DNA of 45,049 nucleotides. Source: a virus. The translations under genes were made by a program, and so were the position numbers. Positions within the stretch are counted from its first letter, which is position 1. The number at the start of each line of letters is the position of its first letter. The DNA is taken from positions 1 through 45,049 of the IMG/VR virus record IMGVR_UViG_3300027659_000061. One strand, written 5' to 3'. The notes beneath the pieces were generated by a model. The model saw only the letters and a program-made list of their open reading frames with translations, did not search any database and was not told the DNA's origin. Positions 87 through 41,794 of the stretch are shown here, piece after piece.

Positions 87-127
87 TTTGCTTGTTCCTT
101 TGCTTTATGATACACGAACAGAGTTGA
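1..127. repeat. 127-bp exact direct repeat, first copy
   Basis: Bases 1-127 match 35519-35645 base for base. The next base differs (g at 128, t at 35646) and no similarity follows for about 1.75 kb. The repeat holds the 5' end of the fibre-like gene, its ribosome binding site and the end of the tailspike region. An identity of exactly 127 bp is the length of a common maximum assembly k-mer, so this is most simply the overlap where a circular genome graph closed and branched. Calling it an assembly overlap is inference; the identity is seen directly. Confidence 0.95.
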
Positions 128-129
128 GA

Positions 130-2157
130 TTACACCGAGGTGATGGTCTGCCAGGCCGCGCCAGAGTAGACGCAGAGCTTGGCAAGCGTCGAGTCAAAGA
201 CCACCAGGCCGGCAACCGGCGTACCGATGGCGTTCTTTTGTGTGGTGGTCATCACCGGGAACTTGAACCCCAGTGTCGTCGAGGTGACGTCCACAATGGC
301 GCAAGACGCCGGGGTGCCAGTACCGATGCCCATCAGGCCGGCGCTGGTAATCCGCATCCGCTCGGTGCCAGAAGTGGTGCCGGTGGTGATTGAGACTGCG
401 GTGGGGACGGTGCCAGCAGAAACTGCGCCGTCAATGAACCCGGTAAAACCGCCCCGCGCCTGGATCGCCGTGCCGTCCGACCCGCCAAATGATATGGCGC
501 CGATCGTGTCTCCGTTGGCGGCTGCCGTCAGGTCGGTGGCAGATGCGCCGCGAGTTTTGGCGAACAAGAGACTGGCGCCAGTGGTGTTGACCGAGTACTG
601 CCACTGGAACGCATTGGAAGAGCCGTTGGCAGCAGTGCCGTACAACTGCAAACCATATGCAAACGCACTACTGGCAACACCAACAAGAACTTTGCTAGAC
701 GCCGTTACAATAACAAAATTTCCAGTAGGGGACGGGATGGAAGTATTTACTGAATTAAATACAGCGTCCCCTGCTCCAGTGACATACGCAGTCTCAACCC
801 CACCAGAATCTAAAATAGAGACTACTGTGGCGGCGCTTGTTGCATAAGATTGCAATTTAAGCACAGCCTTTCCAGCGCTTGCCGCTGTTTGATAGCGCAT
901 AACTGCGCCTTCTCGTGTCTCGTACATATTTCCATCACCAAGATCATTGATGTTGGAATTTACCATGGTGAATCCATGGCCAATAATTCTGCACTCTCCA
1001 GAATCTGCAGTAAATTGAATTTCATATCCAGTTTGATTGCCTGGATTCTCCATTCTTGGCCAATATATTACATTGTTGTCGCCATTTATAATTGCAGCAG
1101 TTGCTAGTGTGGCCGAATTATCTTCAAATGACGGCCCATAAAATCTATTGTTGTTAAGTTGGTTTGATGCAAAATGAGCAATTTCAAGATTTGTGGTTGT
1201 AACCGCTGGGTACGTGCTGCTATGGTTGAACGTACCGCCGTAGAAATTGTTTTCGTTGCAGTAGCCAACTCCGCCAGCATTAAGATATATATTGCGCCTG
1301 TTATCATGCGCAAAACCAATGTGGATTTCGTTGTAGCTAAACCCGCCATTGGCTTGATCGCCATAGCAGAATATGCCATCTCTAAATCCGCTGCAGCGGC
1401 GTATATCAATGTAGCTTGATGTAAGGTTTCGCAATTGAACGCCGGATGATGCGCCTGCAGTATCCAAAGAAAGGCGCTCTACTTTAATTCCAGTTGCAGT
1501 AATGCCGGCAATATTGGCTGTTGTGCTGCCAATCCGAATAGCTGGGTCATTTGATACACTAGAAACAATGCTGCCAATAAATGTAATAGTTGAAAACTCT
1601 GGCAGGTCAAACGTCAATACGCTAGAAGTTGTATATGTTCCTGCGTTAATAATTAGCTGTGGAGACGTCAGCGTTTTGGCGTATGTAATGGCCGCTGTAA
1701 TGGCGCTGGTGGCGTCAAGGACGCCGGTAGAATCAGCCCCAAAGTCTGTTACGTTTACAACTTGCTGAAGGTATGCTTGGACTGTAGTAGTTACGGCCCC
1801 CGTACCTGGAGGTGTGTAATCAACATCTGAGGCGTCAATTTTAACAACCACTCCACTGAAGCGATCAGTTGCTGCTAGGGAGCTATATACAGCACTCCCC
1901 TTGGAGTTTTGAACCAAGATGCTGTAATCACTGTCAACGTAGATTACGGCTGGCGTGCCTGAGTTGACGATGTAGCCGCCAGATGTGCGCAGTGGTTGCG
2001 CCGCTGTTTGCGTCAGCGCAGCGTCCCAGTAGATGCTGATCGGGTTGGTCTGTGGCGCCAGATTGACCGTGCCGATCCAGATGTAGCCGTTGTCCAGCGG
2101 CTGGCCCGCTGTATCGGCAAAGATCGGGTAGGCGGGTTGGATTGAAAGTGCGGTCAT
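130..2157 (-). CDS. Tailspike, beta-helix type (variant A)
   Basis: This 675-residue protein is close in length to P22 gp9 (667) and sits in the same place, after the ejection genes. Residues 1 to about 91 form a head-binding-type domain that is nearly identical to the N-terminus of the other spike at 35623-38226. Around residues 137-165 a DFGADSTG segment followed by an AITAAI helix is the usual cap of a pectate-lyase-like right-handed beta-helix, which probably fills the middle and would bind or cleave a surface polysaccharide. The C-terminus (about 600-675, with FKFPVMTTTQKNAI and GLVVFDSTLAKLCVYSG) is a motif common at the ends of phage fibres. No catalytic residues can be assigned. The body is visibly AT-richer than its neighbours, which suggests module transfer. 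An AAGGAA site precedes the ATG. Confidence 0.85.
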   Translation of the reverse strand: MTALSIQPAYPIFADTAGQPLDNGYIWIGTVNLAPQTNPISIYWDAALTQTAAQPLRTSGGYIVNSGTPAVIYVDSDYSILVQNSKGSAVYSSLAATDRFSGVVVKIDASDVDYTPPGTGAVTTTVQAYLQQVVNVTDFGADSTGVLDATSAITAAITYAKTLTSPQLIINAGTYTTSSVLTFDLPEFSTITFIGSIVSSVSNDPAIRIGSTTANIAGITATGIKVERLSLDTAGASSGVQLRNLTSSYIDIRRCSGFRDGIFCYGDQANGGFSYNEIHIGFAHDNRRNIYLNAGGVGYCNENNFYGGTFNHSSTYPAVTTTNLEIAHFASNQLNNNRFYGPSFEDNSATLATAAIINGDNNVIYWPRMENPGNQTGYEIQFTADSGECRIIGHGFTMVNSNINDLGDGNMYETREGAVMRYQTAASAGKAVLKLQSYATSAATVVSILDSGGVETAYVTGAGDAVFNSVNTSIPSPTGNFVIVTASSKVLVGVASSAFAYGLQLYGTAANGSSNAFQWQYSVNTTGASLLFAKTRGASATDLTAAANGDTIGAISFGGSDGTAIQARGGFTGFIDGAVSAGTVPTAVSITTGTTSGTERMRITSAGLMGIGTGTPASCAIVDVTSTTLGFKFPVMTTTQKNAIGTPVAGLVVFDSTLAKLCVYSGAAWQTITSV

Positions 2158-2170
2158 TTATTCAAGTTCC

Positions 2171-4144
2171 TTACGGGTTCACAATAGGCAGTGCATTGAG
2201 CGCATCATTGATTTTTGCCTTGGTCTGACCGGCTTTCCGCATCTTGATGATCTGCACTAGGCTTGTCGCTATTGGTGCCGGCACGCCGGTAAGCATTCCA
2301 GCAAGAGCCGACTCGCCCATTGCCGCCAGAATGGTGCCCGCAGTGCCGGATGAGTTGACAAGCGTCCCAGGCGGAACCGTGTTGACATAGCGTACCACAT
2401 CGTTTAGGTCTCGGACAACCTGGGCTTGCTTTTTGCCCAGCACAATGTCGAGCCTGCCGTTTGCGTCAAGCGTCCTGACCGCCTGGTGCAACTTTGCCGG
2501 GGACACGATAGGCATATCATTGGAGCCCATGCCCATGTTCTTGGTGGCCTCGTCCTTCAAGTATTTGATGGCCGCGCCTTGAAGCTCGCTCCACGCCTGG
2601 GCGCCGTTGGCCCTGATCTCTGCGGCGTTCGGAGCGTTGCGCCCGCCAGTCAAGAGCGTGCGCTTTAGCCTGGTAATGTCTGCTGGCGAGCCGTTGATGA
2701 TCGAGGTCTGAAAAATCCTATCCGTTGCCACCAGCGGGTCGGCCATGCCGGCCCTGTTGAGCAAGAGCCGGCCAATGATTGCGCGATCTTCGTATTTCTC
2801 GGATTGATTTCGGCGAAGAGCGCGGGCTTTCTTGAACATGGGGCCAGATGCCGGGTCGGTGTGGGCGTCCACCATCTTTTTAATGATGGTCTCCTCCCGA
2901 ATGCCAACCGCATCATCGTATTTGGCAAGGCCGCTCATTTCTTTGCGGAAATCTTCCAGAGCGCCAACAGTTGCGGGGCGAGCTACAAGACCGCCTTCCT
3001 CGTCCAATTGCGCAAGACCCATCTTTACAAGATAGGATTTTGCAGCGTCTGGCACGGCTGAAGACGGAATGCCCGATACCCTGGAGTTCAAGTATCCGAT
3101 CAAAGAATTCTGAATTTGATTTTCACCCTGGCCAATGGTGACTGTCTCGGTAAGGTTTACCGGGTTTGCTGCCTCTGGGGCTTTTCTGGCTGCGTTGTAC
3201 GCCGTGCGTACTTGTGTTTTTGACGCATCCAATCCTTCGTTCAGTGATTTCAGAACGGCATTGCCGGTTGCCGTTGGCCCCATTTCGGCGGCAACTGCGC
3301 CAGTGGCGTCAACCAGTGCGTCAAAGTTTTGCAGCGCCTGTAGGTTATTTTCTTCTGCTCGCTGGCGCAACGGGGCGCCGGCCTCGGCTTTCATTTGCTC
3401 TTTTTCAAACGCCAGCTGTGCGGCTTCTCTGGCCGCTGCGCCCCTAGTCAGGGTGACCGGAACCGGCAACCCTTCGGCAGTTGCAACGCGCTGGATTGCC
3501 GCCGGCGTTGCTGCCGCGCCAGCCGAGCCAGGCCGGAGTGGCGTTGATGGAGTGACTACCCCCTTGACTGCGCTAATGGCCTGCTGCACCGGCTGAACAA
3601 CGCCAGTTCTTGCGGCCTGGACGGCAGCAGTGCCGACCCTTTGAGCCGTTGCCTGCGCAATTGGCGCCGCCGCCTGCGTGGCTCGCTGAAGCATAGCCAT
3701 TTGCGGGAGCATCCCGGTGAGCGGAATTGCTTCTTTCAGTACTTCACCAGTAGCCTGCACCATCTCCCGGCCGGCCTGCGTCCTTGGAGCATATGTAAGC
3801 GCCTCGGCACCTTTGGCGGCGGCCTGCTCAACCATATTTGCGGCCTCTGGCGTGCCGAAGTTGCCAGATAGAATTTGCTGCGCAAGACCAAGTGCCGTCC
3901 CTCCGATAGCGCCAACAGTCCCGCCGATTGCGCCAGTGCCGAGTGTTGTGGCCGTCTCTAGTGCGCCAAGCGCCTTTTGAGCCATGCCAGGCTCCTCGGT
4001 AGCTGTTGGAGCAACGGGAGTTGCGGCCCTGCCTTCGTCAGACTTGGCCTGCTCATAGGCCTGCACAACCGTGTTGTAGTCAGGTGTGCCACGCTTGGAG
4101 ACGTTGGAAACAATCCACGCGGCGTATTCGTCAGCGGTAGCCAT
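2171..4144 (-). CDS. Ejection (internal virion) protein, gp16-like position
   Basis: The 657-residue product (P22 gp16 is 609) is the last of three large genes between the gp10/needle genes and the tailspike, which is where P22 encodes the proteins injected with the DNA. It starts with a short helical segment (ADEYAAWIVSNVSKRGTPDY) of a kind I have seen on other phage virion proteins. Next comes a Pro/Ala linker and then a Gly/Ala-rich hydrophobic stretch at about 58-92 that could insert in a membrane. The rest is Ala/Gln-rich and mostly helical. The ATG overlaps the stop of the upstream gene by one base (TAATG), so translation is probably coupled. The function is inferred from position and composition; I see no lytic or peptidase motif. 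Confidence 0.7.
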   Translation of the reverse strand: MATADEYAAWIVSNVSKRGTPDYNTVVQAYEQAKSDEGRAATPVAPTATEEPGMAQKALGALETATTLGTGAIGGTVGAIGGTALGLAQQILSGNFGTPEAANMVEQAAAKGAEALTYAPRTQAGREMVQATGEVLKEAIPLTGMLPQMAMLQRATQAAAPIAQATAQRVGTAAVQAARTGVVQPVQQAISAVKGVVTPSTPLRPGSAGAAATPAAIQRVATAEGLPVPVTLTRGAAAREAAQLAFEKEQMKAEAGAPLRQRAEENNLQALQNFDALVDATGAVAAEMGPTATGNAVLKSLNEGLDASKTQVRTAYNAARKAPEAANPVNLTETVTIGQGENQIQNSLIGYLNSRVSGIPSSAVPDAAKSYLVKMGLAQLDEEGGLVARPATVGALEDFRKEMSGLAKYDDAVGIREETIIKKMVDAHTDPASGPMFKKARALRRNQSEKYEDRAIIGRLLLNRAGMADPLVATDRIFQTSIINGSPADITRLKRTLLTGGRNAPNAAEIRANGAQAWSELQGAAIKYLKDEATKNMGMGSNDMPIVSPAKLHQAVRTLDANGRLDIVLGKKQAQVVRDLNDVVRYVNTVPPGTLVNSSGTAGTILAAMGESALAGMLTGVPAPIATSLVQIIKMRKAGQTKAKINDALNALPIVNP

Positions 4145-5715
4145 TAGCTGCCCCCACGAATGATTGCATCGGCCTGGCTCCTGATGCTGATTGTTGGGGC
4201 TGCAGCCGGTTGTCCAGCGACTGGAATTTGCCCTCTATTTGCCGCTGCAACTTCTGCTGGCGTGCCTGTTGGAATTTGAGCCTGCGGGGTTTGATATCGC
4301 TTCGCAATTTCACTTGATACGCGAACGGTGAAGTCTGCGAATGTTTCGCCAGCCTTTGCCGAAAGATCGCCAGCAATGAACGCACTTGGCGCCCTGCCGA
4401 GCGATCCCTTGTTTTGTGACATCCAGTCAACTTTTGCGCTTTGCACGGATGCGTCCAAGTCTTGCATTTTTGCCATGCCGCGCAAGAATGACGATATGAC
4501 CTTGGGGTCGGAGGTGTCGGACGGGAACCCTGATAGCGCCATCTGAATATCTTTATCGGTTGCCGGTCCTGGCGGCAGACTCTGGATAGCCGCCGTGTTG
4601 CGTAGGCGTGTAAATTCTTGGCGCAACTCGCTGACTGCGCCTTGGCTGCCTGTGGATTTTTTAAGCCATTCGCTGAATGAGCCCAAGCTACCCCAAGACG
4701 TGCCAATATCGGTAATGCGATTGGACAGCGAATTAAGTTGCTCTGCTTGTTGCTTGGATGCAGAGGCAGCAACTGCAGCTTTGTTTATTTCAACTTTTGC
4801 GGCGTCTGGAATGGCAACCGCAAGATCGGCAATCTTGGCAAGTATAAAAGTAACATCTGCTGCGGTTTTTGCTTGATCTAATTTAAATTTTGCAACCCTG
4901 TCATTTATTTGAGACTGAAGATTTTTTACATTCCAATTGTCAACGGTTATTTTTGACTGATTAAGTTTATCTGCAAAACTTGCATCTGATGCGGCTTTAA
5001 TTGCATTTGATTGGTCAGTTGACAACTTAGACGCTGCCAATGGTCCGGCAAATTCAGCAGCAACGCCTGCCGTCAGTGCGTCCGCTTTCGCTTTTGCAGC
5101 GGCTGCTATAGCTTGGTCTAGCTCTGCTGGCGCTTTGGCCTCCAGCCTACCGGTAGACAATGTCTTGTCAACGTTCTCTAGAATTTCTTTGCCACCAGGC
5201 ATCATGGCCATCATGATGCCAATTGTATTTTGTGCGCCAGTTGGGTTTACGCCAATCAGCTTCAGGTATGTTTCTGTGGCCTTTGCCTTTGGCTCATTGC
5301 CGCTATTTCTGTGCGCATCAATTTGATCTTGCAACAACTGTTTTGCAATCTCAGGTTGCCCAGCTTTGAGCGCTGAATATACTTCCCCTGCCTGTGACAA
5401 TATATTTTGATTCTGAACGGTTGTCATTTCCCCGGCAATTTTCAATACATTGTTGGCCTGCGCCTCTGGCAACAAAAAAGATGCCTGAGTAAGTTGACTG
5501 GCTGTTGCATTTTTATCCGCAAGCAATGCCTGAACTTTTGTTTGAGCATCCATCGCATTCTTGCGAGCCGTCTCTTTTGCTTGGGCTTCGGCTTGCTTGG
5601 CCTGCACCTCTGCCCCGGCAGCGCCAAGTTTGAACCCGCCCAGTGCCGCCTCAAATGGGCCCTGCACGTCAATAGAGTAATTGATCGGCGCTTGGTACGG
5701 ATTGATGCCTGCCAT
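4144..5715 (-). CDS. Ejection protein, gp20-like position
   Basis: This 523-residue protein (P22 gp20 is 471) is very rich in Ala, Gln, Lys and Asp. Residues 35-70 and much of 170-340 look like amphipathic coiled coil, and the C-terminus (about 470-523) is Pro/Ala-rich and probably disordered. No enzymatic motif is visible. It lies between the gp7-like and gp16-like genes and overlaps the latter's start by one base, so the three are probably made together and packaged as the ejection set. Compared with its counterpart at 40213-41784, substitutions cluster at about residues 190-300 while the N-terminal and C-terminal thirds are almost unchanged. The role is inferred from gene order and composition. 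Confidence 0.65.
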   Translation of the reverse strand: MAGINPYQAPINYSIDVQGPFEAALGGFKLGAAGAEVQAKQAEAQAKETARKNAMDAQTKVQALLADKNATASQLTQASFLLPEAQANNVLKIAGEMTTVQNQNILSQAGEVYSALKAGQPEIAKQLLQDQIDAHRNSGNEPKAKATETYLKLIGVNPTGAQNTIGIMMAMMPGGKEILENVDKTLSTGRLEAKAPAELDQAIAAAAKAKADALTAGVAAEFAGPLAASKLSTDQSNAIKAASDASFADKLNQSKITVDNWNVKNLQSQINDRVAKFKLDQAKTAADVTFILAKIADLAVAIPDAAKVEINKAAVAASASKQQAEQLNSLSNRITDIGTSWGSLGSFSEWLKKSTGSQGAVSELRQEFTRLRNTAAIQSLPPGPATDKDIQMALSGFPSDTSDPKVISSFLRGMAKMQDLDASVQSAKVDWMSQNKGSLGRAPSAFIAGDLSAKAGETFADFTVRVSSEIAKRYQTPQAQIPTGTPAEVAAANRGQIPVAGQPAAAPTISIRSQADAIIRGGS

Positions 5716-5725
5716 TTTCTATCCT

Positions 5726-6370
5726 TTAGAATCCGAAGCCTGGCTTCTTGCCAGCGCCGATTTGAGCGCCAACAAACTGGCCCGGCAAGTTGAACAGTTG
5801 CCCGTAAGCCTTGGCCTCGCCAAGGATGCCACCAGCTTCTGCGGCGCCTTGCTGGCCAAGCAGGTTGGCGATGTTGGTGCCTGTTTCCATCCCGGCAGCC
5901 CCAACACCAGCGGCGGATGCCTGACCCATGCTTGTCATGCCGCCAAGCCGCCCGTACTGCTGTTCGATGAGACTGGATAGAAGTTGAGGGCGAAACTGGC
6001 CAAGCGCGGCCTGAATGTTGCCGCCGCGCAGCCCGCCAGTAGCCGATGCCTGCTGGAGCAGTGCGTTTTCGCCTTGCTGCGCCAGTGCCTTGAACGTCTC
6101 GCCACCGGTGAGCCTAGCAATAGCGGCCTGCTCTGCCTCCGGCCCTTTTAGGCCTAGCAATGTCTGCTGCTGCTCCAGTGCCGGCAGGCCCGCCTCGGTG
6201 TACGGCTGCAGGAGTTTGCGCATCTCGTCAAACTGGCGGCGCTGCTCTTCAATGCCGGCCTGGGATGCCGCGCCTTGAGCGGCTGCGGCGTCACCGGCTG
6301 CGCTAGCCTGCATCGAGCTACCGATCAGCTGGCTCCCCGCCACAATCATTCCGGTTACTGGATCAGGCAT
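5726..6370 (-). CDS. Ejection protein, gp7-like position
   Basis: The product has 214 residues (P22 gp7 has 229). It begins with a small hydrophobic segment (GMIVAGSQLIGSSMQASAAG) and continues with an Ala/Gly/Gln-rich chain carrying repeated LLQQ and GGLRGGN-like turns. It ends in GAGKKPGFGF. Such small Ala/Gly-rich proteins before the larger ejection proteins are commonly annotated as DNA-transfer or internal virion proteins. The ATG lies 8 bases inside the 3' end of the upstream gene. The copy at 41795-42439 has the same length with a handful of substitutions. No catalytic motif is seen, and the assignment rests on order, size and composition. Confidence 0.65.
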   Translation of the reverse strand: MPDPVTGMIVAGSQLIGSSMQASAAGDAAAAQGAASQAGIEEQRRQFDEMRKLLQPYTEAGLPALEQQQTLLGLKGPEAEQAAIARLTGGETFKALAQQGENALLQQASATGGLRGGNIQAALGQFRPQLLSSLIEQQYGRLGGMTSMGQASAAGVGAAGMETGTNIANLLGQQGAAEAGGILGEAKAYGQLFNLPGQFVGAQIGAGKKPGFGF

Positions 6371-6812
6371 TGCCGAACTCCTTCATGTAATCTTCAAATT
6401 TCTCGCCGTACAGGTTCATGACAAGATGTGCGTTTTTGGTTGCGAAGCCCGAGCCATGCGATAGCGTAACAGCCATCAGGATCAGATCATAGTACCCGGC
6501 TCGCCAGATGAAGGATTTTGCATCTGCATTCCCGCTGCGCTCGGCGCTGTCTGATGCTTGCCACTTCAAGACCGAGACCGCAAGCATTGGCACCAAGTGG
6601 TGCGAGTTGGCGGCAAAGAATTGGTTCTGCGGCATACCTACGAAAACGTTCCAGATGGTAGCGTTCAGGTCTTTGCGCTTGACCACATCGCCATCTGCAA
6701 CGTCATCGAAGACCTGAATAGCTTCATAGACCATCACCAGCCACTCAATGGCCGGTTCTGGCAAGAGAAAAACCTTGCGCAGGTTTTCTATGAGCCATTC
6801 GAGGTTGGTCAC
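6363..6812 (-). CDS. Conserved virion-block protein with a DDVAD motif
   Basis: I do not recognise this 149-residue, mostly helical protein. I start it at the GTG at 6812-6810, five bases after the upstream stop, because that position is conserved in the copy at 42432-42881. Earlier in-frame starts run into the upstream gene. Around residue 35 it has FDDVADGD, which formally matches the DDxxD metal-binding motif of isoprenoid synthases; the other strain has DDIAD. Further on are a SHHLVP segment and WRAGYYDLIL. Its place, between the needle-like protein and the ejection proteins, suggests a role in the particle or its assembly. The enzyme resemblance is only a motif match. Confidence 0.7.
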   Translation of the reverse strand: MTNLEWLIENLRKVFLLPEPAIEWLVMVYEAIQVFDDVADGDVVKRKDLNATIWNVFVGMPQNQFFAANSHHLVPMLAVSVLKWQASDSAERSGNADAKSFIWRAGYYDLILMAVTLSHGSGFATKNAHLVMNLYGEKFEDYMKEFGNA

Positions 6813-6816
6813 AACG

Positions 6817-7218
6817 TCAATCTTCCATCTCAAATTCACGCTCTTCCCAGGCCTGGCAGACGCGCAAGTCGTGGCAAATGAATTCGAACTTGTTGCAGTA
6901 GCCACGGAAGCCTGCGCCCGTGTCCCAGTCGTTGCGAGGGATGCGCTCCATTTTAGCCTGCGTCATGGTGCTGTTGTCGTAGTACTCGCAGTTCGAACAC
7001 CGGCGGCGGCGAGCCTCCTTCTCGTCAACTTGCATGGCCTTGCCAACGGCGACCCAATAGACCTTGTTGGCCGCTGGCTCGTTGCTTGGGTTCTCAGGCC
7101 CGAGCATCCAGTCCTCAATGACGGTCTCGGTGTTCTTCTTGTTCTCTGCCGTGGTGATGAATTCCTCGCCCATCGGCAGGCCCGCGAAGCCCTGGGGGAT
7201 GACCATAAATTCTTTCAT
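6817..7218 (-). CDS. Virion-block protein with a cysteine cluster
   Basis: The start is set at MKEFMVIPQGFAGLPMG because an AAAGGAG site lies eight bases upstream; the longer open frame has no such site. The 133-residue product has a C-terminal cysteine cluster: RCSNCEYYD, then about 26 residues on GYCNKFEFICHDLRVC followed by an acidic tail. Five cysteines in this spacing could bind zinc or an iron-sulfur cluster, and all are kept in the copy at 42887-43288. It occupies roughly the P22 gene-14 position, but I see no likeness to gp14. The function is unknown. Confidence 0.75.
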   Translation of the reverse strand: MKEFMVIPQGFAGLPMGEEFITTAENKKNTETVIEDWMLGPENPSNEPAANKVYWVAVGKAMQVDEKEARRRRCSNCEYYDNSTMTQAKMERIPRNDWDTGAGFRGYCNKFEFICHDLRVCQAWEEREFEMED

Positions 7219-7232
7219 GCTGTGGGGCTCCT

Positions 7233-7568
7233 TTAGGTGATTTCGCGGCCCGACACGCGCAACGTGAGCGCTGTGGCGTTGCTGGCGATCGTGCTGATAA
7301 ATGCACCGGCATCGAGCTCTTGGCCGACCAGCTCCGGGCACAGGTAGGTCTCGCCTGGCACCACGGCTCGGTCATCAATAATCAGGTTGGCATTGCCTGC
7401 GCTGCCGCCGGACTGCACCAGGTTGACGCTGAATGTTCTGTTGACCGTATCGGTGTTGGTGACCGTGGCCTTGTCGATCAGCGCTTTGACAGAGTTTGCC
7501 GTGTACTGCGTTGTTTGCGAGGCCTCCATCTGCTTGGGGGCCACTAGGGTTTTGACGATTACGGTCAT
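7233..7568 (-). CDS. Small beta-rich structural protein
   Basis: This 111-residue protein is rich in Thr, Val and Asn and poor in charged residues. It shows alternating hydrophobic strands (TVIVKTLV, FSVNLVQ, ANLIIDD, LTLRVSG) and no Cys, which is typical of a small beta-sandwich virion component. It overlaps the stop of the needle-like gene by four bases and precedes the cysteine-cluster gene. Only three substitutions separate it from the copy at 43303-43638. It may be an adaptor or decoration protein; I cannot assign a family. Confidence 0.7.
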   Translation of the reverse strand: MTVIVKTLVAPKQMEASQTTQYTANSVKALIDKATVTNTDTVNRTFSVNLVQSGGSAGNANLIIDDRAVVPGETYLCPELVGQELDAGAFISTIASNATALTLRVSGREIT

Positions 7569-8362
7569 TGGACGCCTTCAATGTTGTTGTTGACTGTAAG
7601 AATTATGGACGGGATGCCGGGATGCGGTGCGGCGGCAGGAAAGGCGGTAACCTCAACACTCAAGTCAGTGACCGAGAACATCAGCTCAACATAATCGTTG
7701 GCTTTGAGGTTAAAAAAGTAATTCAGCGATGAAAAAATCTCAGCATTGTTGCCTTGAATTCTTATTCTGCTGGCGCTGTTTGCCACGTCAACGCCATTTA
7801 GGCGAAACCAGAAGTCAAAAACCGCTGTGCCGCCGCTTGTTTTGTCTAGCTGAAACGAGGTGTCAAAGTTGTAGATGCCCTCGCTGTCCACAATGATGCG
7901 CGAGGTGGGTGACCCGATATACACGCCATTGCTCAGGTCGGTGCTGTTGAACGTGATCGCCGTAGCCGTGTTGATAACCGTTGCCGTTTGCGTGGTGGTG
8001 TCGTAAAACGAGCCGTATCTTGAGCGCTTGAACTCTCTGGCCGGGGGCGCCATTTGCAGCCCTTCGACCGAGGCCGTCAGGCTCCCAAGCATTGCCATCG
8101 CTTGATTGGCCTTGTTCTCGGCCAGCGCGGCATTGATGGCCGACTCTTGCGCCAGCGAGGCGATCATGGAGAGCGCCTGCACGGCAGTGGTCTGAGCAAT
8201 GCCGGCGGCGATGTTGACCTCTAGCACCCCATCAGGCCCGATGGCGTCAACGGCAGCAAACAGCAGTTCGAACTGTCTGATCTGCTGTTGGTCGGTCAAG
8301 AACTGCGCGAGCTGATCCCGCGTCAGATTGAGCTTCCGGGAGTTCGGTGCGGTGGTTGCCAT
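7565..8362 (-). CDS. Probable tail needle, gp26/Sf6-needle-like
   Basis: In P22 the gene after gp10 encodes the tail needle gp26 (233 residues), and this 265-residue protein has that place. Residues 1-115 are helical with heptad-like Leu/Ile/Ala spacing (QQIRQFELLFAAVD, then AQESAINAALAENKANQAMAMLG), as expected of a trimeric coiled coil. Residues about 125-265 form a beta-rich domain (STDLSNGVYIG, RIIVDSEGIYNFDTSFQ, YVELMFSV) resembling C1q/TNF-like jelly rolls. The Sf6 needle tip has a TNF-like knob, so the architecture fits. Needles plug the portal channel and pierce the outer membrane. The identification is inference from synteny and domain layout. Confidence 0.6.
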   Translation of the reverse strand: MATTAPNSRKLNLTRDQLAQFLTDQQQIRQFELLFAAVDAIGPDGVLEVNIAAGIAQTTAVQALSMIASLAQESAINAALAENKANQAMAMLGSLTASVEGLQMAPPAREFKRSRYGSFYDTTTQTATVINTATAITFNSTDLSNGVYIGSPTSRIIVDSEGIYNFDTSFQLDKTSGGTAVFDFWFRLNGVDVANSASRIRIQGNNAEIFSSLNYFFNLKANDYVELMFSVTDLSVEVTAFPAAAPHPGIPSIILTVNNNIEGVQ

Positions 8363-8366
8363 GTGC

Positions 8367-9881
8367 TTAGAACGCCAGTGCTTCTAGTTGGGCCTCGAGC
8401 CTGGCGAATGACACGTGGGCGCTACTGTCGCCCCGGAACCGCTGGATGCGCCAGTTGCGCATGTGACCCTGTTGGAACCACGCCAGGCGCTTCTTGGTGT
8501 TGCCTGCGGTGCCGACTGAGATGAACCTGTCCTGGCTCCACGATTTGCCGTCCAGCGAATAGCTGGTGCTGATCTGCGGGTTGCCGAGTGCCGCTGAGTT
8601 TGGGACGGCAAGCTCAAGCAGGATGTATTCGCCATTCTCTTGCAGCAAAAAGAAGCCGTTTTCTTGGAGCAATCCGCTGATAACTTGCGTCACTACAGCA
8701 ACGCTTCCGGTCAATGCCACCAGTTCTAGCTTGTTGAAGATGGCGCCGTTGCTCTCGTTGTAGACGATGAGCGTGCCGAATTCCCAGCGCACCTGCTGGC
8801 CCCAGTGGTGGCCGGTGCTTTGCACCAAATAGCCGATGGCGCTGGACTGCGGATCGCCGACCAGCCACTTGTTGTAGCACCAGACGATGTTCCTGGCCCG
8901 GTACTGCGCGATGCCGGTGGTGGTGCTGGCCAGAACAAACCAGACCTGATCTTGTAGTGCTCGCGAGGCGGATGCGTCGTAGACCAGCGTTTGATCTGGC
9001 AGATGTACGTACAGGTGCTCGTGCGCCTTGTCGTTTCTGGACTCCAGCTTCACCGTGCTCAGTTGATCTTCGGTGTACTGCAGCAGAATGTTGTCGATTT
9101 CTTGAGTGCTGACCTTTGTCGTTGTTGCCGAGACGCCAAGATAGATGCCTGGCGCCTCGTTCCGACCACCACCGAGGAATGCCATCGCATCAACAAAAAC
9201 GCAGCAGGCTTGGGTGCCGATGCAGCCCTTTTGAATCTGAGCGCCTTCAATCCTTGCGAACGGGAAAAGATCGGTGCCCACGTTGTTGAAGACCTCAATG
9301 GTGTGCCGATTGAGCGCGTAGACCTCGTTGCGAAGTTTGAGTAGCGCCACCACGGGGTCGGGGTCCGCCTCGCTTAACCCGTACTTAAATGGGTCTATGG
9401 CAAATGGATTGTTTAGCTCTGTGACGATCAGGTACTGACCATCGGTGGTCATAAAGTAGCCATCGACCCAGCAGAAGTCGATCACGAATCCAAGGTCCGG
9501 GTCTGTGACTTGCAGCAACCCGGCGGTGCTGCTCCAGTAGTACAGGCGTCCGCCGGATGCGACGGCCAGGCTGGTGAAGCTGTAGTCAAACGTCACCAAG
9601 TTGGTGGTTGGCCCGCCAACATCGCCCAGGACGGTTACAGCGCCGCTGCTTGAGACTGAGACCAGCTTGGTGCCCATGACCCGATAGCAGATGTTGTTCC
9701 ACTCAATCCCGCCACGGTCGATGCCTGGCCCTGTCCCATTGGCGACAATGCCATCGCCTGGTCGCAAGAAACCGTTGCTGATGCCGCTGACCTTTGGTAC
9801 GGGCACCAGATTGACGGGGTAGCTGGTGCGGATCTCCGGCGTGCCGTCAGTGTAAATTCCGTTCAGGATTGGAATTTGCAT
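8367..9881 (-). CDS. Packaged-DNA stabilisation protein, gp10-like
   Basis: The 504-residue product (P22 gp10 is 472) follows the pattern of the P22 gp10 hub family. It opens with a short strand (MQIPILNGIYT), the SYPVNLVPVPK segment and a GFLRPGDGI loop, then beta-propeller-like repeats and a VWFVLASTTTGIAQYRARN stretch. It would close the portal-gp4 channel after packaging and hold the needle and tailspikes. Near residues 405-425 it has two tandem LLQENG units that recur in a tiny gene at 10681-10815. The ATG lies directly against the TGA of the HNH gene (TGAATG). A second, truncated version is at 44436-45049. Confidence 0.8.
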   Translation of the reverse strand: MQIPILNGIYTDGTPEIRTSYPVNLVPVPKVSGISNGFLRPGDGIVANGTGPGIDRGGIEWNNICYRVMGTKLVSVSSSGAVTVLGDVGGPTTNLVTFDYSFTSLAVASGGRLYYWSSTAGLLQVTDPDLGFVIDFCWVDGYFMTTDGQYLIVTELNNPFAIDPFKYGLSEADPDPVVALLKLRNEVYALNRHTIEVFNNVGTDLFPFARIEGAQIQKGCIGTQACCVFVDAMAFLGGGRNEAPGIYLGVSATTTKVSTQEIDNILLQYTEDQLSTVKLESRNDKAHEHLYVHLPDQTLVYDASASRALQDQVWFVLASTTTGIAQYRARNIVWCYNKWLVGDPQSSAIGYLVQSTGHHWGQQVRWEFGTLIVYNESNGAIFNKLELVALTGSVAVVTQVISGLLQENGFFLLQENGEYILLELAVPNSAALGNPQISTSYSLDGKSWSQDRFISVGTAGNTKKRLAWFQQGHMRNWRIQRFRGDSSAHVSFARLEAQLEALAF

Positions 9882-12929: not shown

Positions 12930-14201
12930 TTATTGATTAAAAAGCAAAATTCCGCTCATTTCCGGCTGTTTGTTCACAACACCGAACAAGGTATCAAGAC
13001 GGTACTTGATGACCATGCTGTCAATGTCGTAGAACTTCTGCATCACCAGTTCAACGCCTTGGTCGGTGGTGGCACGCATCACTGCGGTGCCAGCATCGGA
13101 CGGGATGGCGTAACGGCCTGGCAGGATTTCCAACGAATCCTTTTGCCAGAACACGTTGATCGCCGAGGCACCGGTGTTGAGCCAGTTCAGAGCGGCAGCG
13201 CCGGAAGCGGCAACCAACTGAACGTTCTTGTACTGCAGTTCAGCATCGGTGGCCGGTGCGGTGGCTGCAATGATGGGAGGGCTGATGACCAGGGTCACGC
13301 CACCGGCAGGAACGCTGATGACGCGGAAGGTCTTCAGTTGGCCGGTACTCACTTTGGTGATGTGATGCACCGCGTAGATGCCGTCAATCGTGAACGCATC
13401 GCCAGCCACAACGCCGGCCGAGTTGGACACGGTGACGGTCTGGTAGCGGTTGTCCACGTTGATCTGACCGCCGACCGAGGTCGAGGTGGCTTGCGGCACG
13501 TACTGGGCCTGAGCGCCAGTGGTGTCAATCGTGGTTACTCCACCAGCCGCCACGGCAATGCGGTTTGCATAGTCGAACTTGTAGGTGTCAAAACCAGCGA
13601 CCATCCCGACCTGGTTACGCTCGTAAGCGAGGTTAGATTTCGGGTTGCCGAAGGAGCGAGTTGCCACCGCCAGGTTGCCGGCCATGCCGTTGTAGTCGCG
13701 GCTGGACAGGCCCAGGAAGCGATCGTAGTCAGGAACGCCTTGCTCGTTCATGATCGTGTCGCACAGGCTCACATCGTCATAGTCACCGGCAGCGCCAACG
13801 ATCGGAACCACCAGCGTGCCCTGAGCAGCTGCTGTGTTCATGATCGCCACGTTGATATCGCTGGCCAACTTCTGCTTCGCGGACTCGCCCAGGCGGCCCT
13901 CTTGCAGCGCATCGCGCAGGTCGAGGGTCGTCATGGTCCAAGGCACCGTTTGGCTGAAGCCAATGGTGCTGGGAACCGACAACTGGGTCATGTTCTGGTA
14001 CGTGACGGGCGTGCCGGGCGCGGAGGTTTGCGACTGGGCGATGTAGGGCATCGGGCGCCAGATGGTGTCGTTGGTGCGAGCCATCATCGTCTGGTCGGTG
14101 TTGTAGACCGAGACGTGACGCGACAGCACCAGCAAGTCCTGGAAGCCTTCAAGAATGTCTTCGAACGCTACGCGCTCTTCTTTTGAGAATGAATTGCTCA
14201 C
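12930..14201 (-). CDS. Major coat protein, P22 gp5-like
   Basis: The 423-residue product (P22 gp5 is 430) has the P22-coat order. There is an N-terminal helix (FSKEERVAFEDILEGFQDLL), an extended arm with RTNDTIWRPMPYIAQS, a TVPWTMTTLDLRDALQE segment and the long helix GESAKQKLASDINVAI. An inserted beta domain follows at about 220-320 (VTVSNSAGVVAGDAF), and the C-terminus is LDTLFGVVNKQPEMSGIL. It builds the icosahedral shell with the scaffold. The start is GTG, eleven bases after AAGGAT. It is flanked by the scaffold gene upstream and a hairpin downstream. Confidence 0.92.
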   Translation of the reverse strand: MSNSFSKEERVAFEDILEGFQDLLVLSRHVSVYNTDQTMMARTNDTIWRPMPYIAQSQTSAPGTPVTYQNMTQLSVPSTIGFSQTVPWTMTTLDLRDALQEGRLGESAKQKLASDINVAIMNTAAAQGTLVVPIVGAAGDYDDVSLCDTIMNEQGVPDYDRFLGLSSRDYNGMAGNLAVATRSFGNPKSNLAYERNQVGMVAGFDTYKFDYANRIAVAAGGVTTIDTTGAQAQYVPQATSTSVGGQINVDNRYQTVTVSNSAGVVAGDAFTIDGIYAVHHITKVSTGQLKTFRVISVPAGGVTLVISPPIIAATAPATDAELQYKNVQLVAASGAAALNWLNTGASAINVFWQKDSLEILPGRYAIPSDAGTAVMRATTDQGVELVMQKFYDIDSMVIKYRLDTLFGVVNKQPEMSGILLFNQ

Positions 14202-18444: not shown

Positions 18445-18862
18445 TCTTGATAATCACGCGCTCGATCCTGGCGAACTCCAGCGGCGCACCATCCGCGCCG
18501 GTCACCTCGTGCTTCTGGGTCTCGGCCCAACGCATCTGGGTCTTGCTCCACCAGATCATGGCTGTGGTATCGCCGCCAGTTGCCTTCTGGAACAGGTTCT
18601 TGCCAACCTGGGCGTTGGCCTTGGACTTGCCGGACACCAACTCGGGGCCGAAGTGAGCGCGCAGGGTATCAACGTGGATGCCATTGCGCACCAGTGCGCC
18701 GATCTGGTCGATGGGCAGCCCGTAGCCTGACAAGGCCTCCACCTGCTTGCGCTCGGCGTCGGTGGGCTCGAAGGCTGGGCGGCCTGCGCCTGGACGAGCG
18801 CCACCGTTGTTGCTCTTCTTTTCTAGAGTCGGTTTTTCAGTGGCCTGTTTCTTGCTTGTCAT
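18437..18862 (-). CDS. terS: Terminase small subunit
   Basis: The 141-residue product has the GGARPGAGRPAFEPTDAERK N-terminus typical of small terminases. A helix-turn-helix region follows (KQVEALSGYGLPIDQIGALV, then DTLRAHFGPEL) and then the oligomerisation segment NAQVGKNLFQKATGGDTTAM with IWWSKTQMRW. It would recognise the packaging site and bring DNA to the large subunit. It overlaps the ends of both neighbours by a few bases, so the methyltransferase, TerS and TerL are probably translated as a unit. Confidence 0.9.
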   Translation of the reverse strand: MTSKKQATEKPTLEKKSNNGGARPGAGRPAFEPTDAERKQVEALSGYGLPIDQIGALVRNGIHVDTLRAHFGPELVSGKSKANAQVGKNLFQKATGGDTTAMIWWSKTQMRWAETQKHEVTGADGAPLEFARIERVIIKNG

Positions 18863-20133
18863 TCTGTAACCTCCGCGAAAGGTTGGTTGGTTTCTGCGTG
18901 AACTGCGATTTTACCTGTGAAGTCTTGCCAGCGTTTGATGATGACGTCGACGTATTTGGGGTCTAGTTCCATCAAACAAGAATGGCGCCCATTCTTTTCT
19001 GCGGCAATCAAAGTGGTGCCGCTGCCGCCAAAACTGTCCAGCACCAAGTCGCCGCCATTTGTGTTGTTCAGCATCTGGTACTCAAACAACGCCACCGGCT
19101 TCATGGTCGGATGCTCGCCATTGCGGCTTGGCTTATCAAACTCCAAGATGGTTGTTTGCTTGCGGTCGGTTGCCCACAAATGGCCAGCGCCTTCCTTCCA
19201 CCCGTACAGGCACGGTTCATGCTTCCAATGGTAGTCCTGGCGGCCAATAGCAAATACGCTTTTTTTCCATATCAAGCATTGCCGAACCTTCCATTCAGCA
19301 TCTTTTGCCGCGCCTCGAAAGTTGTAGCCCTCCGAGTCTGCATGCCAGATGTAGAACACCGCTCCAGGCTTCATTGTGGAATCGGCAGTGACGTAAGCAT
19401 CGCGCAAGAACTGGCGGAATGCGTCATCGCTCATTGCATCGTTCTTAATGCCAAATGTCAAAACATCTTTTCTGGCTTTGCCTGCTTTTTGCAACATTTC
19501 GTTTTTTGCCGTCATGTCAACGTTGTACGGCGGATCAGTCAACCACATATCGGTCTGCCTGCCCGCAACCAACTTATCCATGTCCGTAATAGAGCAGGAA
19601 TCCCCACACATAACCCGATGCCGCCCAAGTAACCAAACATCTCCCAGCACCGTCACCGGCACCGCAGGCACCTCAGGCACCGCATCCTCGTCCGTCAGGC
19701 CGGGCTCAAGCTCCAACGGCATTAACGCTGCAATCTCATCAGCACTAAACCCAATTAACTCTAAATCAAAATCTAATTCTTTTAATTCTGATAATTCTAA
19801 ATTCAATAATTCATTCTCCCACCCAGCATTCAGCGCCAGCTTATTGTCCGCCAATATATAAGCCCGCTTCTTAGCATCGCTCCACCCCTTGGCCACCATC
19901 ACCGGCACTTCTGCCATTTGAAGGCGCTGTGCGGCCAGTGTGCGCCCGTGGCCGGCAATGATGCCGCCATCCTCATCCACCAGCACAGGAGTGGTCCAGC
20001 CCCATTCACGGATTGATGCCGCTATCTGAGCGACCTGCTCGTCCGAGTGCGTCCTGGCGTTCCTTGCGTACGGCACCAGGCGCTCGATCTTCCAGCGCTC
20101 CACCTTGTCTGCCGGGTTCACTTTTTGTTCCAT
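18859..20133 (-). CDS. ParB-like nuclease domain fused to DNA methyltransferase
   Basis: Residues about 10-135 are a ParB/Srx-like domain with RNARTHSDEQVAQIA and the phosphate-binding GHGR (61-64). Residues about 160-410 are an amino-methyltransferase with DPPYNV (200-205), HPTMKP (341-346) and FGGSGTT (368-374). DPPY comes before the AdoMet-binding motif, as in beta-class N6-adenine or N4-cytosine enzymes. The fusion is common in phages directly before terminase. It could mark phage DNA against restriction or for packaging. It overlaps TerS by four bases. Codons for residues about 107-130 are markedly AT-rich. It is the first gene after the 216-base GTACCC region. Confidence 0.9.
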   Translation of the reverse strand: MEQKVNPADKVERWKIERLVPYARNARTHSDEQVAQIAASIREWGWTTPVLVDEDGGIIAGHGRTLAAQRLQMAEVPVMVAKGWSDAKKRAYILADNKLALNAGWENELLNLELSELKELDFDLELIGFSADEIAALMPLELEPGLTDEDAVPEVPAVPVTVLGDVWLLGRHRVMCGDSCSITDMDKLVAGRQTDMWLTDPPYNVDMTAKNEMLQKAGKARKDVLTFGIKNDAMSDDAFRQFLRDAYVTADSTMKPGAVFYIWHADSEGYNFRGAAKDAEWKVRQCLIWKKSVFAIGRQDYHWKHEPCLYGWKEGAGHLWATDRKQTTILEFDKPSRNGEHPTMKPVALFEYQMLNNTNGGDLVLDSFGGSGTTLIAAEKNGRHSCLMELDPKYVDVIIKRWQDFTGKIAVHAETNQPFAEVTE

Positions 20134-22595: not shown

Positions 22596-22757
22596 ATGCT
22601 CAAAGTTACATTCCGCGCTTTTTCACCGCGCCTTAAAGAGGAGTTCATCATTGTTGAACTTCATCGCTCGCTGGCTGATGCGCAACATCGCGCCCTCGGC
22701 ATGATGTGGACGATTGCCAAGGTCGAAGCGGACTGCTTCACTTACGAGGCGGCCTGA
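22596..22757 (+). CDS. Small early protein, 53 residues
   Basis: The start is set at the ATG behind CAGGAGA; the longer frame has no support. The protein begins MLKVTFRAFSPRLKEEFIIV and ends in VEADCFTYEAA, a compact alternation of strands and one helix. I do not recognise it. It is the first gene of the rightward arm and is followed after two bases by the Sak4-like gene, so it is probably made early with the recombination proteins. Confidence 0.65.
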   Translation: MLKVTFRAFSPRLKEEFIIVELHRSLADAQHRALGMMWTIAKVEADCFTYEAA

Positions 22758-22759
22758 CC

Positions 22760-23437
22760 ATGGCTATCAACCTAAAAACCACCGCCACCCTGGCGTCCAA
22801 CGGCGCCAAGCTGCTTGTCTACGGCCAAGCAGGAGCAGGCAAGACAACGCTGGCGGCAACCCTGCCCAACCCCATCATCCTTAGCGCTGAGGGCGGCCTG
22901 CTCTCAATCCAAGACGCCAACCTGCCCTACATTGAGGTCACTTCCATGGCCACCCTGATGGAGGCCTACAGCTGGCTGCGCGACAGCCACGAGGCCAAGG
23001 ACTACCAATCGGTGGCGCTGGACAGCATCTCGGAGATCGCCGAGGTTGTCCTAAACGCTGAGAAGAAGTCGAACAAAGACCCGCGAGCAGCCTACGGCGC
23101 CATGCAAGAACAGATGGCGGACATTATCAGAGCCTTCCGCGACCTGACTGGCCGGCACGTTTACATGAGCGCCAAGCTCGAAAAGACCCAGGACGAAATG
23201 GGCCGGGTTCTCTACTCGCCTTCGATGCCGGGTAACAAGACCGGCCAAGCGCTGCCCTACTTCTTCGACGAAGTGCTGGCCCTGCGGGTCGAGAAGGACG
23301 CCGAGGGGATCAGCCAGCGGGCCTTGATGTGCGACAGCGATGGTCTGTGGCTGGCGAAGGATCGCAGCGGGAAACTCGAAGCCTGGGAGCCGGCTGATTT
23401 GGGCCAGATCATTGCAAAGATCGGCGGTGCGAAATGA
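22760..23437 (+). CDS. Sak4-like recombination ATPase
   Basis: The 225-residue product starts at MAINLKTTATLASNGAKLLV, directly after the previous stop. It has Walker A GQAGAGKTT (22-30) and a Walker-B-like strand SVALDSISEI near 77-86, in a RecA-type core without the extra domains of RecA. This is the AAA_24/Sak4 pattern: phage ATPases that anneal or exchange strands together with a dedicated SSB. The DUF669 SSB gene and an exonuclease gene follow in the same operon, which supports a recombination role. It overlaps the next start by four bases. Confidence 0.85.
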   Translation: MAINLKTTATLASNGAKLLVYGQAGAGKTTLAATLPNPIILSAEGGLLSIQDANLPYIEVTSMATLMEAYSWLRDSHEAKDYQSVALDSISEIAEVVLNAEKKSNKDPRAAYGAMQEQMADIIRAFRDLTGRHVYMSAKLEKTQDEMGRVLYSPSMPGNKTGQALPYFFDEVLALRVEKDAEGISQRALMCDSDGLWLAKDRSGKLEAWEPADLGQIIAKIGGAK

Positions 23438-24522: not shown

Positions 24523-24791
24523 TGCGCCAGCATCGCCCCGATCACGTCCTAGAGCGAGCCGAGTTCTTGTCACGCGCCCGCTCGATGGCTCGCCGGGGCG
24601 TTGCCCTGACGCATAGCAAGCTCACGCCGGCGGAGGTGCAGGAGATCCGCCAGGCCAAAGAGAACCGCCTGGACCTGATGGCTCACATTTCCGAGACGTT
24701 GAGCAATTCCGCACTGGCGGAAAAGTACGGGGTGCATCCACGCACCATTGAAAAGGTGCTGTCTTATGAGACTTGGAGCCACATCAAATGA
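24522..24791 (+). CDS. HTH-like small protein
   Basis: The 89-residue product has a basic N-terminus (RQHRPDHVLERAEFLSRARS) and a C-terminal helix-turn-helix-like region, NSALAEKYGVHPRTIEKVLS. Such short proteins resemble the DNA-binding part of phage regulators or of HNH-associated NUMOD-type modules; no catalytic part is seen. It is linked by overlapping stops and starts on both sides (TAATG before, ATGA after). It may regulate the downstream nuclease and methyltransferase genes. Confidence 0.65.
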   Translation: MRQHRPDHVLERAEFLSRARSMARRGVALTHSKLTPAEVQEIRQAKENRLDLMAHISETLSNSALAEKYGVHPRTIEKVLSYETWSHIK

Positions 24792-25765
24792 GCGCAATCC
24801 CAATCCCCGACGAGGTGGCGCAAGCCATTGACGCCGCCCACGAGCGCCAGGTCGAACTACCCAGGTCGCACCTTGGCGCCAGCCAGCTTGGCCACGCCTG
24901 CGACCGGTGGCTCTGGTTGTCGTTCCGTTGGTCGGTGCGCGAGCCATTCCCGGGCCGCATCCTGCGGCTCTTTCGGCGGGGCCGGATGGAGGAGGCCACC
25001 ATAGCGGCGGACCTCAAGGCGATTGGGATTGACATTCACAGCACCGAGGGTGCCCAGGCCCGCGTCGATTTTGGCTCGCACGTCAGCGGGAGCCTGGACG
25101 GCATCATTGAATCTGGCGTCCCCGGTGCGCCGAAGGCTAGGCACATTTTCGAGGCCAAGACGCACAGCAAGAAGTCGTTTGACGATCTGGTCAAGCACGG
25201 CGTCGAGAAGTCCAAGCCGGTCCACGCCGCGCAAATGCAAACGTACATGCACGGCACGAACATCGACCGGGCGCTCTACTTTGCAGTCTGCAAAGACGAT
25301 GACCGTATCTACACCGAGCGCCTGCGGTACAGCCGCACCGAGGCCGAGCGCCTGATTGCTCGAGGCCACCGCATCGCCCTGGCGGACAGGATGCCCGAGC
25401 CGCTCTCCAGCAATCCAAGTTGGTACGAATGCAAGTTCTGCGCAGCGCATGACTTCTGCCACGGCAGCAAAAAGACCAAGGAAGTGAACTGCCGAACCTG
25501 CGCTCACAGCACGGCGGAACCCTCAACGCCGGACCAAGATGCGCACTGGACATGCGCACGATTCGACCGCAGCGTGATCCCGATTGAAACGCAGTACACC
25601 GGCTGCGGGTCGCATGTCCTGCACCCCGACCTAGTGCCGTGGCAGCGCCTGGCCGGGCCGGATGCTTGGACAGCGATCTACGTCATTGATGGGCGGGAGG
25701 TCGCTAATGGGGAGGGGGATGCTAATGTTTATGCTAGCCGGGAGTTGCTGGGGCAGGGGAATTGA
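24788..25765 (+). CDS. Cas4/RecB-like PD-(D/E)XK exonuclease
   Basis: The 325-residue product has the nuclease core GSLDG (D104) and FEAKT (E122, K124). Cys38 near the N-terminus and C215-x2-C218-x5-C224 near the end of the core have the spacing used by Cas4 and AddB nucleases to hold a 4Fe-4S cluster. A further C-terminal group (C235, C238, C256, C272) may be a zinc ribbon. With the Sak4-like ATPase and SSB it makes a recombination set in which the exonuclease produces the single strand. No cas genes or CRISPR array are present, so a link to adaptation is not suggested. The start overlaps the previous stop (ATGA). Confidence 0.85.
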   Translation: MSAIPIPDEVAQAIDAAHERQVELPRSHLGASQLGHACDRWLWLSFRWSVREPFPGRILRLFRRGRMEEATIAADLKAIGIDIHSTEGAQARVDFGSHVSGSLDGIIESGVPGAPKARHIFEAKTHSKKSFDDLVKHGVEKSKPVHAAQMQTYMHGTNIDRALYFAVCKDDDRIYTERLRYSRTEAERLIARGHRIALADRMPEPLSSNPSWYECKFCAAHDFCHGSKKTKEVNCRTCAHSTAEPSTPDQDAHWTCARFDRSVIPIETQYTGCGSHVLHPDLVPWQRLAGPDAWTAIYVIDGREVANGEGDANVYASRELLGQGN

Positions 25766-29913: not shown

Positions 29914-30160
29914 CGCACCGACCAGCGTTATCTCGACGCGACACCAACCCAACAACACAACCCGAAGGAGAATGACTTGCTTCAACAACCACCGATTCTC
30001 AACGGAGGAACGACCCGTCGTTTTCCCCGGACGCTCGACCAAGCGTTCAACAGTGGGGCCGATTACGGCTGCTCCATCGTCCACTACAGAAACCGGTGGA
30101 GTTGGGTTAACCGCGCCGCCGTCTGCGTTCTTTGCGCTTTGGCACTGGTGTGGGGAGTGA
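29894..30160 (+). CDS. Zinc-ribbon protein
   Basis: I start at MRCPLCNAPTSVISTR, which begins a zinc ribbon: CPLC, then basic NNTTRRRMTC and FNNHRFSTEERP, as in NrdR-type and Ogr-like regulators, although only three Cys plus a His are present. The last 45 residues are low-complexity Ser/Thr/Pro. They overlap another credible gene (29977-30174) in a different frame, so the functional part may be only the first 45 residues. It might act on transcription of late or lysis genes. Confidence 0.6.
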   Translation: MRCPLCNAPTSVISTRHQPNNTTRRRMTCFNNHRFSTEERPVVFPGRSTKRSTVGPITAAPSSTTETGGVGLTAPPSAFFALWHWCGE

Positions 30161-30174
30161 CGCTGTGGACTTGA
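29977..30174 (+). CDS. Small membrane protein with FPRTLDQAF motif
   Basis: The start is TTG at 29977, behind GAAGGAGAATGAC, the best ribosome site of this area. The 65-residue product has TRRFPRTLDQAFNSGADYGC and a C-terminal hydrophobic helix (NRAAVCVLCALALVWGVTLW). An FPRTLxxAF block followed by one membrane helix is a pattern I have seen in other small phage proteins. It shares 184 bases with the zinc-ribbon frame. It directly precedes lysozyme and holin, so a role in lysis is possible. Confidence 0.65.
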   Translation: MLQQPPILNGGTTRRFPRTLDQAFNSGADYGCSIVHYRNRWSWVNRAAVCVLCALALVWGVTLWT

Positions 30175-35604: not shown

Positions 35605-35645
35605 TTTGCTTGTTCCTTTGCTTTATGATACACGAACAGAGTTGA
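35519..35645. repeat. 127-bp exact direct repeat, second copy
   Basis: This segment is identical to 1-127. Here it contains the start of the complete fibre-like gene and the last 23 bases of the other tailspike's coding region, including its stop at 35625-35623. In the first copy the tailspike stops a little earlier, at 132-130. The distance between the copies gives a unit of 35518 bases. Confidence 0.95.
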
Positions 35646-38226: not shown

Positions 38227-38239
38227 TTATTCAAGTTCC

Positions 38240-41784: not shown

Positions 41785-41794
41785 TTTTTATCCT

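Follow-up and report, generated by a model that had tools for sequence, protein, structure and literature searches.

Exchangeable host-contacting bodies on a predicted P22-type tailspike anchor in an uncultured podovirus population, seen in a two-lap contig

The stretch of DNA analysed here – the window – is a 45,049-bp IMG/VR virus contig (IMGVR_UViG_3300027659_000061, positions 1-45,049), which encodes a P22-like podovirus portal (PF16510, 1.6e-157), a gp7-like protein (PF25688, 2.3e-9) and a stabilisation protein (PF11134, 1.1e-33), together with coat and terminase genes. Downstream of the P22-like portal, gp7 and ejection genes – the place of a P22-type tailspike gene – lies a spike gene that occurs in two versions, A and B, with a common N-terminal part and different bodies:

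130-2157 (minus): spike A, 675 aa, complete gene, first lap; PF12708, model and Foldseek.
1882-2157 (minus): anchor of A, residues 1-92, 276 nt; DNA identity to B stops here.
1168-1758 (minus): body of A, pectate-lyase-like beta-helix, residues 134-330 (PF12708, 33.9 bits against a cut-off of 27).
133-708 (minus): C-terminal module of A, residues 484-675, common to spikes with other bodies and anchors.
35623-38226 (minus): spike B, 867 aa, complete gene, second lap; phrog_15641 (3.1e-83) and PF13472.
37951-38226 (minus): anchor of B, residues 1-92.
37666-37683 (minus): B motif GDSTGN, residues 182-187, just before the stretch matched by the domain family.
37123-37584 (minus): body of B, SGNH/GDSL domain, residues 215-368 matched.
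37405-37416 (minus): B motif YGHN, residues 271-274.
37144-37155 (minus): B motif DETH, residues 358-361.

Elsewhere in the window, a 417-aa open frame at 12933-14186 (plus) overlaps the major capsid gene (12930-14201) on the opposite strand and is probably a composition effect, and the gene at 18859-20133 joins a ParB-like N-terminus to a DNA methyltransferase C-terminus (phrog_498, 2.1e-169).

A preliminary description of this DNA, made from its letters and open reading frames, had called the first 91 residues of the two spikes nearly the same, and they are indeed 95.6% identical; the junctions that it placed at 1882/37951 and at 127/35645 both proved exact. At the DNA level, the two spike genes are 91.7% identical over nt 1-276 and 27% identical over nt 277-576, with a weaker similarity in the linker that continues to about residue 111-133. 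The further statement that the swap ends in or just after the stop codon, at a block of 127 identical base pairs, holds for A, where the edge lies 2 nt past the stop, and not for B, where it lies 20 nt before it. A profile of 23 anchors matches the P22 head-binding domain (1lkt, E = 2.1e-5) and the 7sg7 tailspike (4.2e-5), and we read residues 1-92 as a P22-type head-binding anchor, which would dock the spike on the virion. In bacterial genome contigs, the anchor profile found two loci, both on MAG contigs (one from an uncultured Burkholderiales, the other a short partial match in Verrucomicrobiales), which we do not take as a host call.

Behind the anchor, A continues as a pectate-lyase-like beta-helix, as had been proposed, with the PF12708 match and the fold prediction in agreement. 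The structure model is poor overall (mean pLDDT 54.3) and mostly at 64-93 over residues 130-310; a Foldseek search with it placed a 7ukj chain first (5.7e-7), followed by the P22 tailspike 2xc1 (3.0e-5) and, lower, the P22 head-binding domain, so that the body of A has both a family match and structural neighbours (7ukj, 2xc1) of the right-handed beta-helix kind. We take the 7ukj and 7sg7 chains, whose titles say Sf6 and 'Gene 14 protein', to be the Sf6 tailspike gp14. A single-sequence search of the PDB returned nothing useful for A (one match, E 0.084) and no match for B. The C-terminal 190 residues of A recur in other spikes at 64-74% identity, and the GC content is 44.8% over nt 277-1440, against 56.9% in the anchor and 60.4% on the other side; A itself is a three-part mosaic, and its product a putative polysaccharide-cleaving enzyme.

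The body of B has the full GDST/GHN/DETH set attributed to it. In a comparison of B with three relatives – L049, depolymerase 2 of Klebsiella phage 515, and BUCT711 (n = 4) – GDSTGN and YGHN are fully invariant, as are the D and H of DETH, leaving the catalytic residues unchanged throughout. The catalytic Ser, Asn, Asp and His of an SGNH hydrolase sit in its GDS, N and DxxH blocks, all of which B has. With a PF13472 cut-off of 32.9 bits, full-length B scores 32.5 and its excised domain 35.2; the relatives score 34.1 (L049), 36.7 and 38.3 (Klebsiella), 32.0 (L046) and 31.9 (L050). Since no beta-helix family matches B at E 0.1 and PF13472 is its sole Pfam match, B is read as a P22-type anchor with an SGNH body. 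Its structure model has a pLDDT of 34.4, too low to give a fold, and profile A4 found weak matches in the PDB, among them the GDSL-like lipase 3p94 (E 0.78). The body is predicted to be SGNH/GDSL esterase-like, with putative enzyme activity. A tblastn search with B hit 53 phage records, and 31 of these belong to Klebsiella phages. In L049 (5001-7514), the B-body relative is broken by a stop codon at 6303-6305, which may be an error, a split gene or a pseudogene.

Scanning IMG/VR with the anchor profile A3 gave 401 relatives, 80 of which were analysed. A, full or partial, occurs on this anchor also in L003-L007 (partial in L007), and B in L030-L033 and L036. The search for further alleles joined at the same residue, which the preliminary description had suggested, was thus fruitful: they occur in other samples, with junctions at nt 275-290 in comparisons among A, B, C and E and of F with A or B, and its claim that a single locus offers different bodies behind the same head-binding domain is borne out by the same junctions in independent contigs. 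Body F departs from this one-junction rule: compared with E, anchor identity drops from about nt 184, and F anchors are about 73-83% identical to those of other bodies. The swap had also been called recent, which does not follow from the window's own pair, as both the flank and the anchor itself show an 8% difference between the laps; a recent A/B swap is visible instead in L004 (A) against L050 (B), which are 97.6% identical from -4999 to spike nt 276, have unrelated bodies, and are 98.3% identical again from 2112/2581 on, in the region of the stop codon.

For an estimate of body diversity, 71 of 85 distinct anchor proteins (complete and of at least 150 aa) were kept and joined by A and B. 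Clustering the bodies of these 73 complete spikes at 50% mutual coverage gave 55 clusters among the matches listed; a threshold of 30% gave 46, and one of 70% gave 58. PF12708 is matched by 43 of the 55 body representatives, Beta_helix by 12 and GDSL by one, B; as B is the sole SGNH body among them, the change from beta-helix to SGNH is an exception at this locus. Four of the 55 match PF09008, a family that A or B alone does not reach at E 0.1. The host-range switching that the preliminary description suggested may follow from such swaps of the body.

The two spikes stand on one contig within a larger repeat:

1-127: 127-nt block, copy 1, with the same letters as 35519-35645; probably a k-mer that the assembly graph left at the A/B fork.
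35519-35645: 127-nt block, copy 2, of which 35623-35645 is the 3' end of B.
1882-8980 (no strand): first-lap homologous block, aligning to 37951-45049 over 7,101 bp at 91.9%.

The match between 1-127 and 35519-35645 is exact over 127 nt, and its extension to 128 fails. An assembly graph with k = 127 (SPAdes) leaves an exact 127-nt overlap at a contig start where it forks. When IMG/VR was scanned with the 127-mer, a single other contig was found, 3300005582_000979, whose 5,652 bp are identical to window positions 29994-35645 and which has its end precisely at 35645, the point of divergence between A and B. Because exactly 127 nt are repeated at the contig start and an independent contig ends at the fork, the 127-bp identity is most likely a k-mer left by the assembler, without biological meaning. 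MW202867.1, the nearest named relative, is a circular genome of 34,522 bp and has one structural gene set and one anchor-bearing tail protein. From the terminal repeat, the fork contig and this circular single-copy relative we conclude that the window runs once, over about 35.5 kb, round a circular or circularly permuted phage genome and then continues for 9.5 kb into a second lap, which belongs to a different strain. This second lap breaks off within a gene. The final 127 nt of the window have no match in any other contig, and phage records hold no near match to its first 25 kb.

Several relatives have contig ends or gene arrangements of their own. An exact 123-nt terminal repeat joins L153 and L154, the contig ends of G031, so that this relative closes as a circle. 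The right end of L043 (sample 3300043409) falls inside the anchor, and its last 126 nt recur exactly in L046, from the same sample and with another ejection type; as the shared end is 126 nt and not 127, a k-mer origin was set aside here and the case is not counted as support. At the ends of G045 (L149, L150), the anchor copies differ (77% DNA identity over the anchor) and have different linkers; because the two copies differ, G045 may be a second over-long contig of the window's kind. Tandem anchor-bearing spikes lie in one genome in L034 (5001-11003) and in L035 (4065-9098). Between those of L034 are two ORFs (184 and 133 aa), the first of which, judged by eye, is presumably lysozyme-like.

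The 3' edge of the exchanged segment seems to have left a trace behind A, and the gene that follows carries the right-hand homology:

105-127 (minus): 23-nt remnant, identical to the stop codon of B and, less one base, the 7 codons before it; non-coding behind A.
34642-35604 (minus): DN, the gene downstream of the spike, 320 aa; its conserved N-terminus is the right-hand homology block.

The last 23 nt of the B gene, TCAACTCTGTTCGTGTATCATAA, sit 2 nt past the A stop in the window and directly past it in L003-L006. The same remnant lies about 60 nt past the stop of body C in L024 (one mismatch in 26), is present in L025 too, and is absent behind bodies E and F. As the B relative L049, in another phage, natively ends in INSIRVS, the remnant belongs to B-type bodies, which suggests that a B-type body probably came first and was replaced by A and by C, its tail being left behind. 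DN is itself a mosaic among relatives – conserved at the N-terminus, variable in the middle and partly conserved at the C-terminus – although its clusters come from coarse single linkage and the lapA DN is truncated by the contig end. LAM (32949-34361), a laminin-G/ConA-like gene (PF13385, 1.6e-39), varies in relatives too.

Variation also extends upstream of the spike:

2171-5715 (minus): ejection-gene cassette, ORFs 4144-5715 and 2171-4144; putative role, from their position after gp7.

The cassette begins some 125 nt into ORF 4144-5715 and ends 4 nt (in several comparisons) or 30 nt (in others) before the spike ATG; the near relatives have at least four types of it. We classed 20 entries by the 2.5 kb upstream (the ejection genes) and by body, and the 12 in which the body is known and the ejection type is 1 or 2 make up a 2 x 4 grid; outside it stand L005 (type 4), L024, L046 and L047 (type 3), L043 and L045 (no body), and L006 and L036 (no upstream). 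Types 1 and 2 are each paired with bodies A, B, E and F, giving 8/8 combinations among these 12 entries, which include likely near-duplicates. In this small sample, with its likely near-duplicates, ejection type and body are not associated (chi-square p 0.95), and the mutual information of all shuffles is at least that observed. The ejection genes thus appear to swap independently of the spike body.

The reading we favour, with a probability of about 0.85, is that exchangeable host-contacting bodies sit on a P22-type anchor and are swapped by homologous recombination, and that the two-lap assembly holds both. A (a beta-helix, polysaccharide-cleaving) and B (SGNH esterase-like) would be two of many alleles; the assembler would have circled the population's map once, met the A/B fork again and gone on into a second strain. 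Bodies would be replaced by homologous recombination in the conserved blocks that flank them, on the left the 276-nt anchor and on the right the spike 3' end together with the beginning of the next gene; the ejection genes upstream would be shuffled likewise, and independently. The agent of the exchanges would be the phage's own Sak4 annealase:

22706-23437 (plus): Sak4-like single-strand annealing protein (phrog_124, 1.7e-55), candidate recombinase.
24773-25765 (plus): Cas4-domain exonuclease (phrog_1990, 3.4e-93), candidate Sak4 partner.

For the Sak4 of phage HK620, one study gives a tolerance of 12% divergence in recombineering and the annealing of oligonucleotides up to 20% diverged (PMC5928155). 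Anchors among the relatives differ by about 1-27%, so most pairs, though not all, lie within that range. It is plausible that Sak4 makes these swaps, which are seen directly as alleles, junctions and reassortment, in a module that is single-copy in most relatives.

Two other readings concern the contig itself. The A and B genes do lie on one contig, as they would in a true 45-kb genome with a 9.5-kb tandem duplication, one virion carrying both spikes. Both spikes in a single genome was also the finding that the preliminary description had named as speaking against an exchange; this was not found for A with B, yet 3 of the 28 relatives of at least 25 kb hold two anchor spikes at distinct places. 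In that set, 24 have one anchor gene and four have two: G019 and G020 carry the pair in tandem, in G040 the copies are separated by 10 kb, and in G045 they occupy the two contig ends. However, the repeat begins exactly at base 1 with exactly 127 identical nt, an independent contig stops at the fork, the second lap ends within a gene where the contig ends, the portal occurs once in 24 of the 28 (in 2 it is absent and in 2 it is in two pieces), and the closest named relative is circular, 34.5 kb long and single-copy. A real duplication of the structural module was rejected on the exact 127-nt block, the fork-ending contig and the single-copy relatives, and we consider it very improbable. That the A/B difference is instead an assembler chimera, absent from nature, verges on the negligible: the fork does sit on a probable k-mer boundary, but both A and B recur on this anchor in the contigs named above, and L004 and L050 show the swap with identical junctions. 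With single contigs carrying A or B on near-identical flanks, the A/B swap is independent of the window's assembly.

The remaining two concern the mechanism. Changes concentrated in one gene with constant edges are what phage-programmed variation – by a diversity-generating retroelement, an invertase or a cassette integrase – might produce, as opposed to chance recombination. Yet reverse transcriptase (PF00078), resolvase (PF00239) and tyrosine integrase (PF00589) each have 0 matches in the window, on which ground this explanation was rejected; the window also has no inverted repeats of at least 40 nt, and the bodies are unrelated rather than point-mutated, all of which makes it highly doubtful. 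More could be said for transfer of the whole spike gene by illegitimate recombination, with the anchor conserved only through selection for docking: where the ejection type changes, homology starts 4 or 30 nt before the ATG, and body F has a partly distinct anchor. Against it, the anchors of L004 and L050 are 98.6% identical despite different bodies; they track the backbone, not the body, so a crossover at the anchor end is needed, and we regard whole-gene transfer as unlikely.

Tailspike modularity is already established for P22-like phages, and this locus adds a well-resolved case of exchange at the anchor's end. The P22-like Salmonella phages epsilon34, P22 and Scho1 have similar head-binding domains (aa 1-115) with three C-terminal forms without recognizable similarity, and tail and ejection proteins are more variable in P22-like phages, according to PMC2629481; a constant anchor, unrelated C-terminal forms and variable ejection proteins are common to both systems, whereas here the phages are uncultured, with a larger set of at least 55 body clusters, one of them SGNH, and with junctions and reassortment resolved to the base. 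In eight coliphage genera, a conserved tailspike anchor is combined with an exchanged receptor-binding part, and flanking DNA motifs have been proposed as recombination hotspots (PMC10408124); both systems are modular with flanking conserved DNA, but O-antigen targets are known or predicted for the coliphages, while ours is a metagenomic population. Fragments common to otherwise unrelated phage proteins, and recent diversification through domain shuffling, have been surveyed database-wide (PMC10684548); both also mark the one locus that our analysis tracks in near relatives. In the metaviromic islands of marine phages, host-recognition genes vary within concurrent populations, and the strongest variation falls in the C-terminal part of tail fibres, as seen by read recruitment (PMC3909814) and not, as here, by alternative assembled alleles.

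For the B body, the closest parallels come from Klebsiella. The protein annotated as 'Depolymerase 2, capsule K5-specific' of phage 515 (OR645408.1) aligns with B residues 165-701 at 32.7% identity and conserves the SGNH catalytic residues; phage 515 differs from B's phage in being a Przondovirus with a different anchor. Tail fibres with SGNH domains from Klebsiella prophages are active esterases on p-nitrophenyl acetate and have been proposed to deacetylate capsule (PMC13123978); they share with the prediction for B an SGNH domain in a receptor-binding protein, esterase activity having been measured for the fibres. A literature search of limited depth found no account of the present phage group.

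The edges of the swap can be read base by base, which makes a known phage habit unusually clear here. A practical warning also follows: circularly permuted phages with spike polymorphism can assemble into over-long contigs that mimic two-spike genomes. Beyond this, and at rather less than even odds, the tail end may be a combinatorial locus in which ejection genes, spike body and next appendage gene are cassettes, the docking segments double as recombination handles, and Sak4 keeps assortment nearly free. If so, the population would present numerous pairings of ejection genes with enzymes at the same time, among them a change of mechanism from beta-helix to SGNH. The relatives form a natural series – the same two enzymes and the same anchor on different backbones, and different enzymes on the same backbone – which lets one ask whether the spike body or the ejection proteins decide the host.
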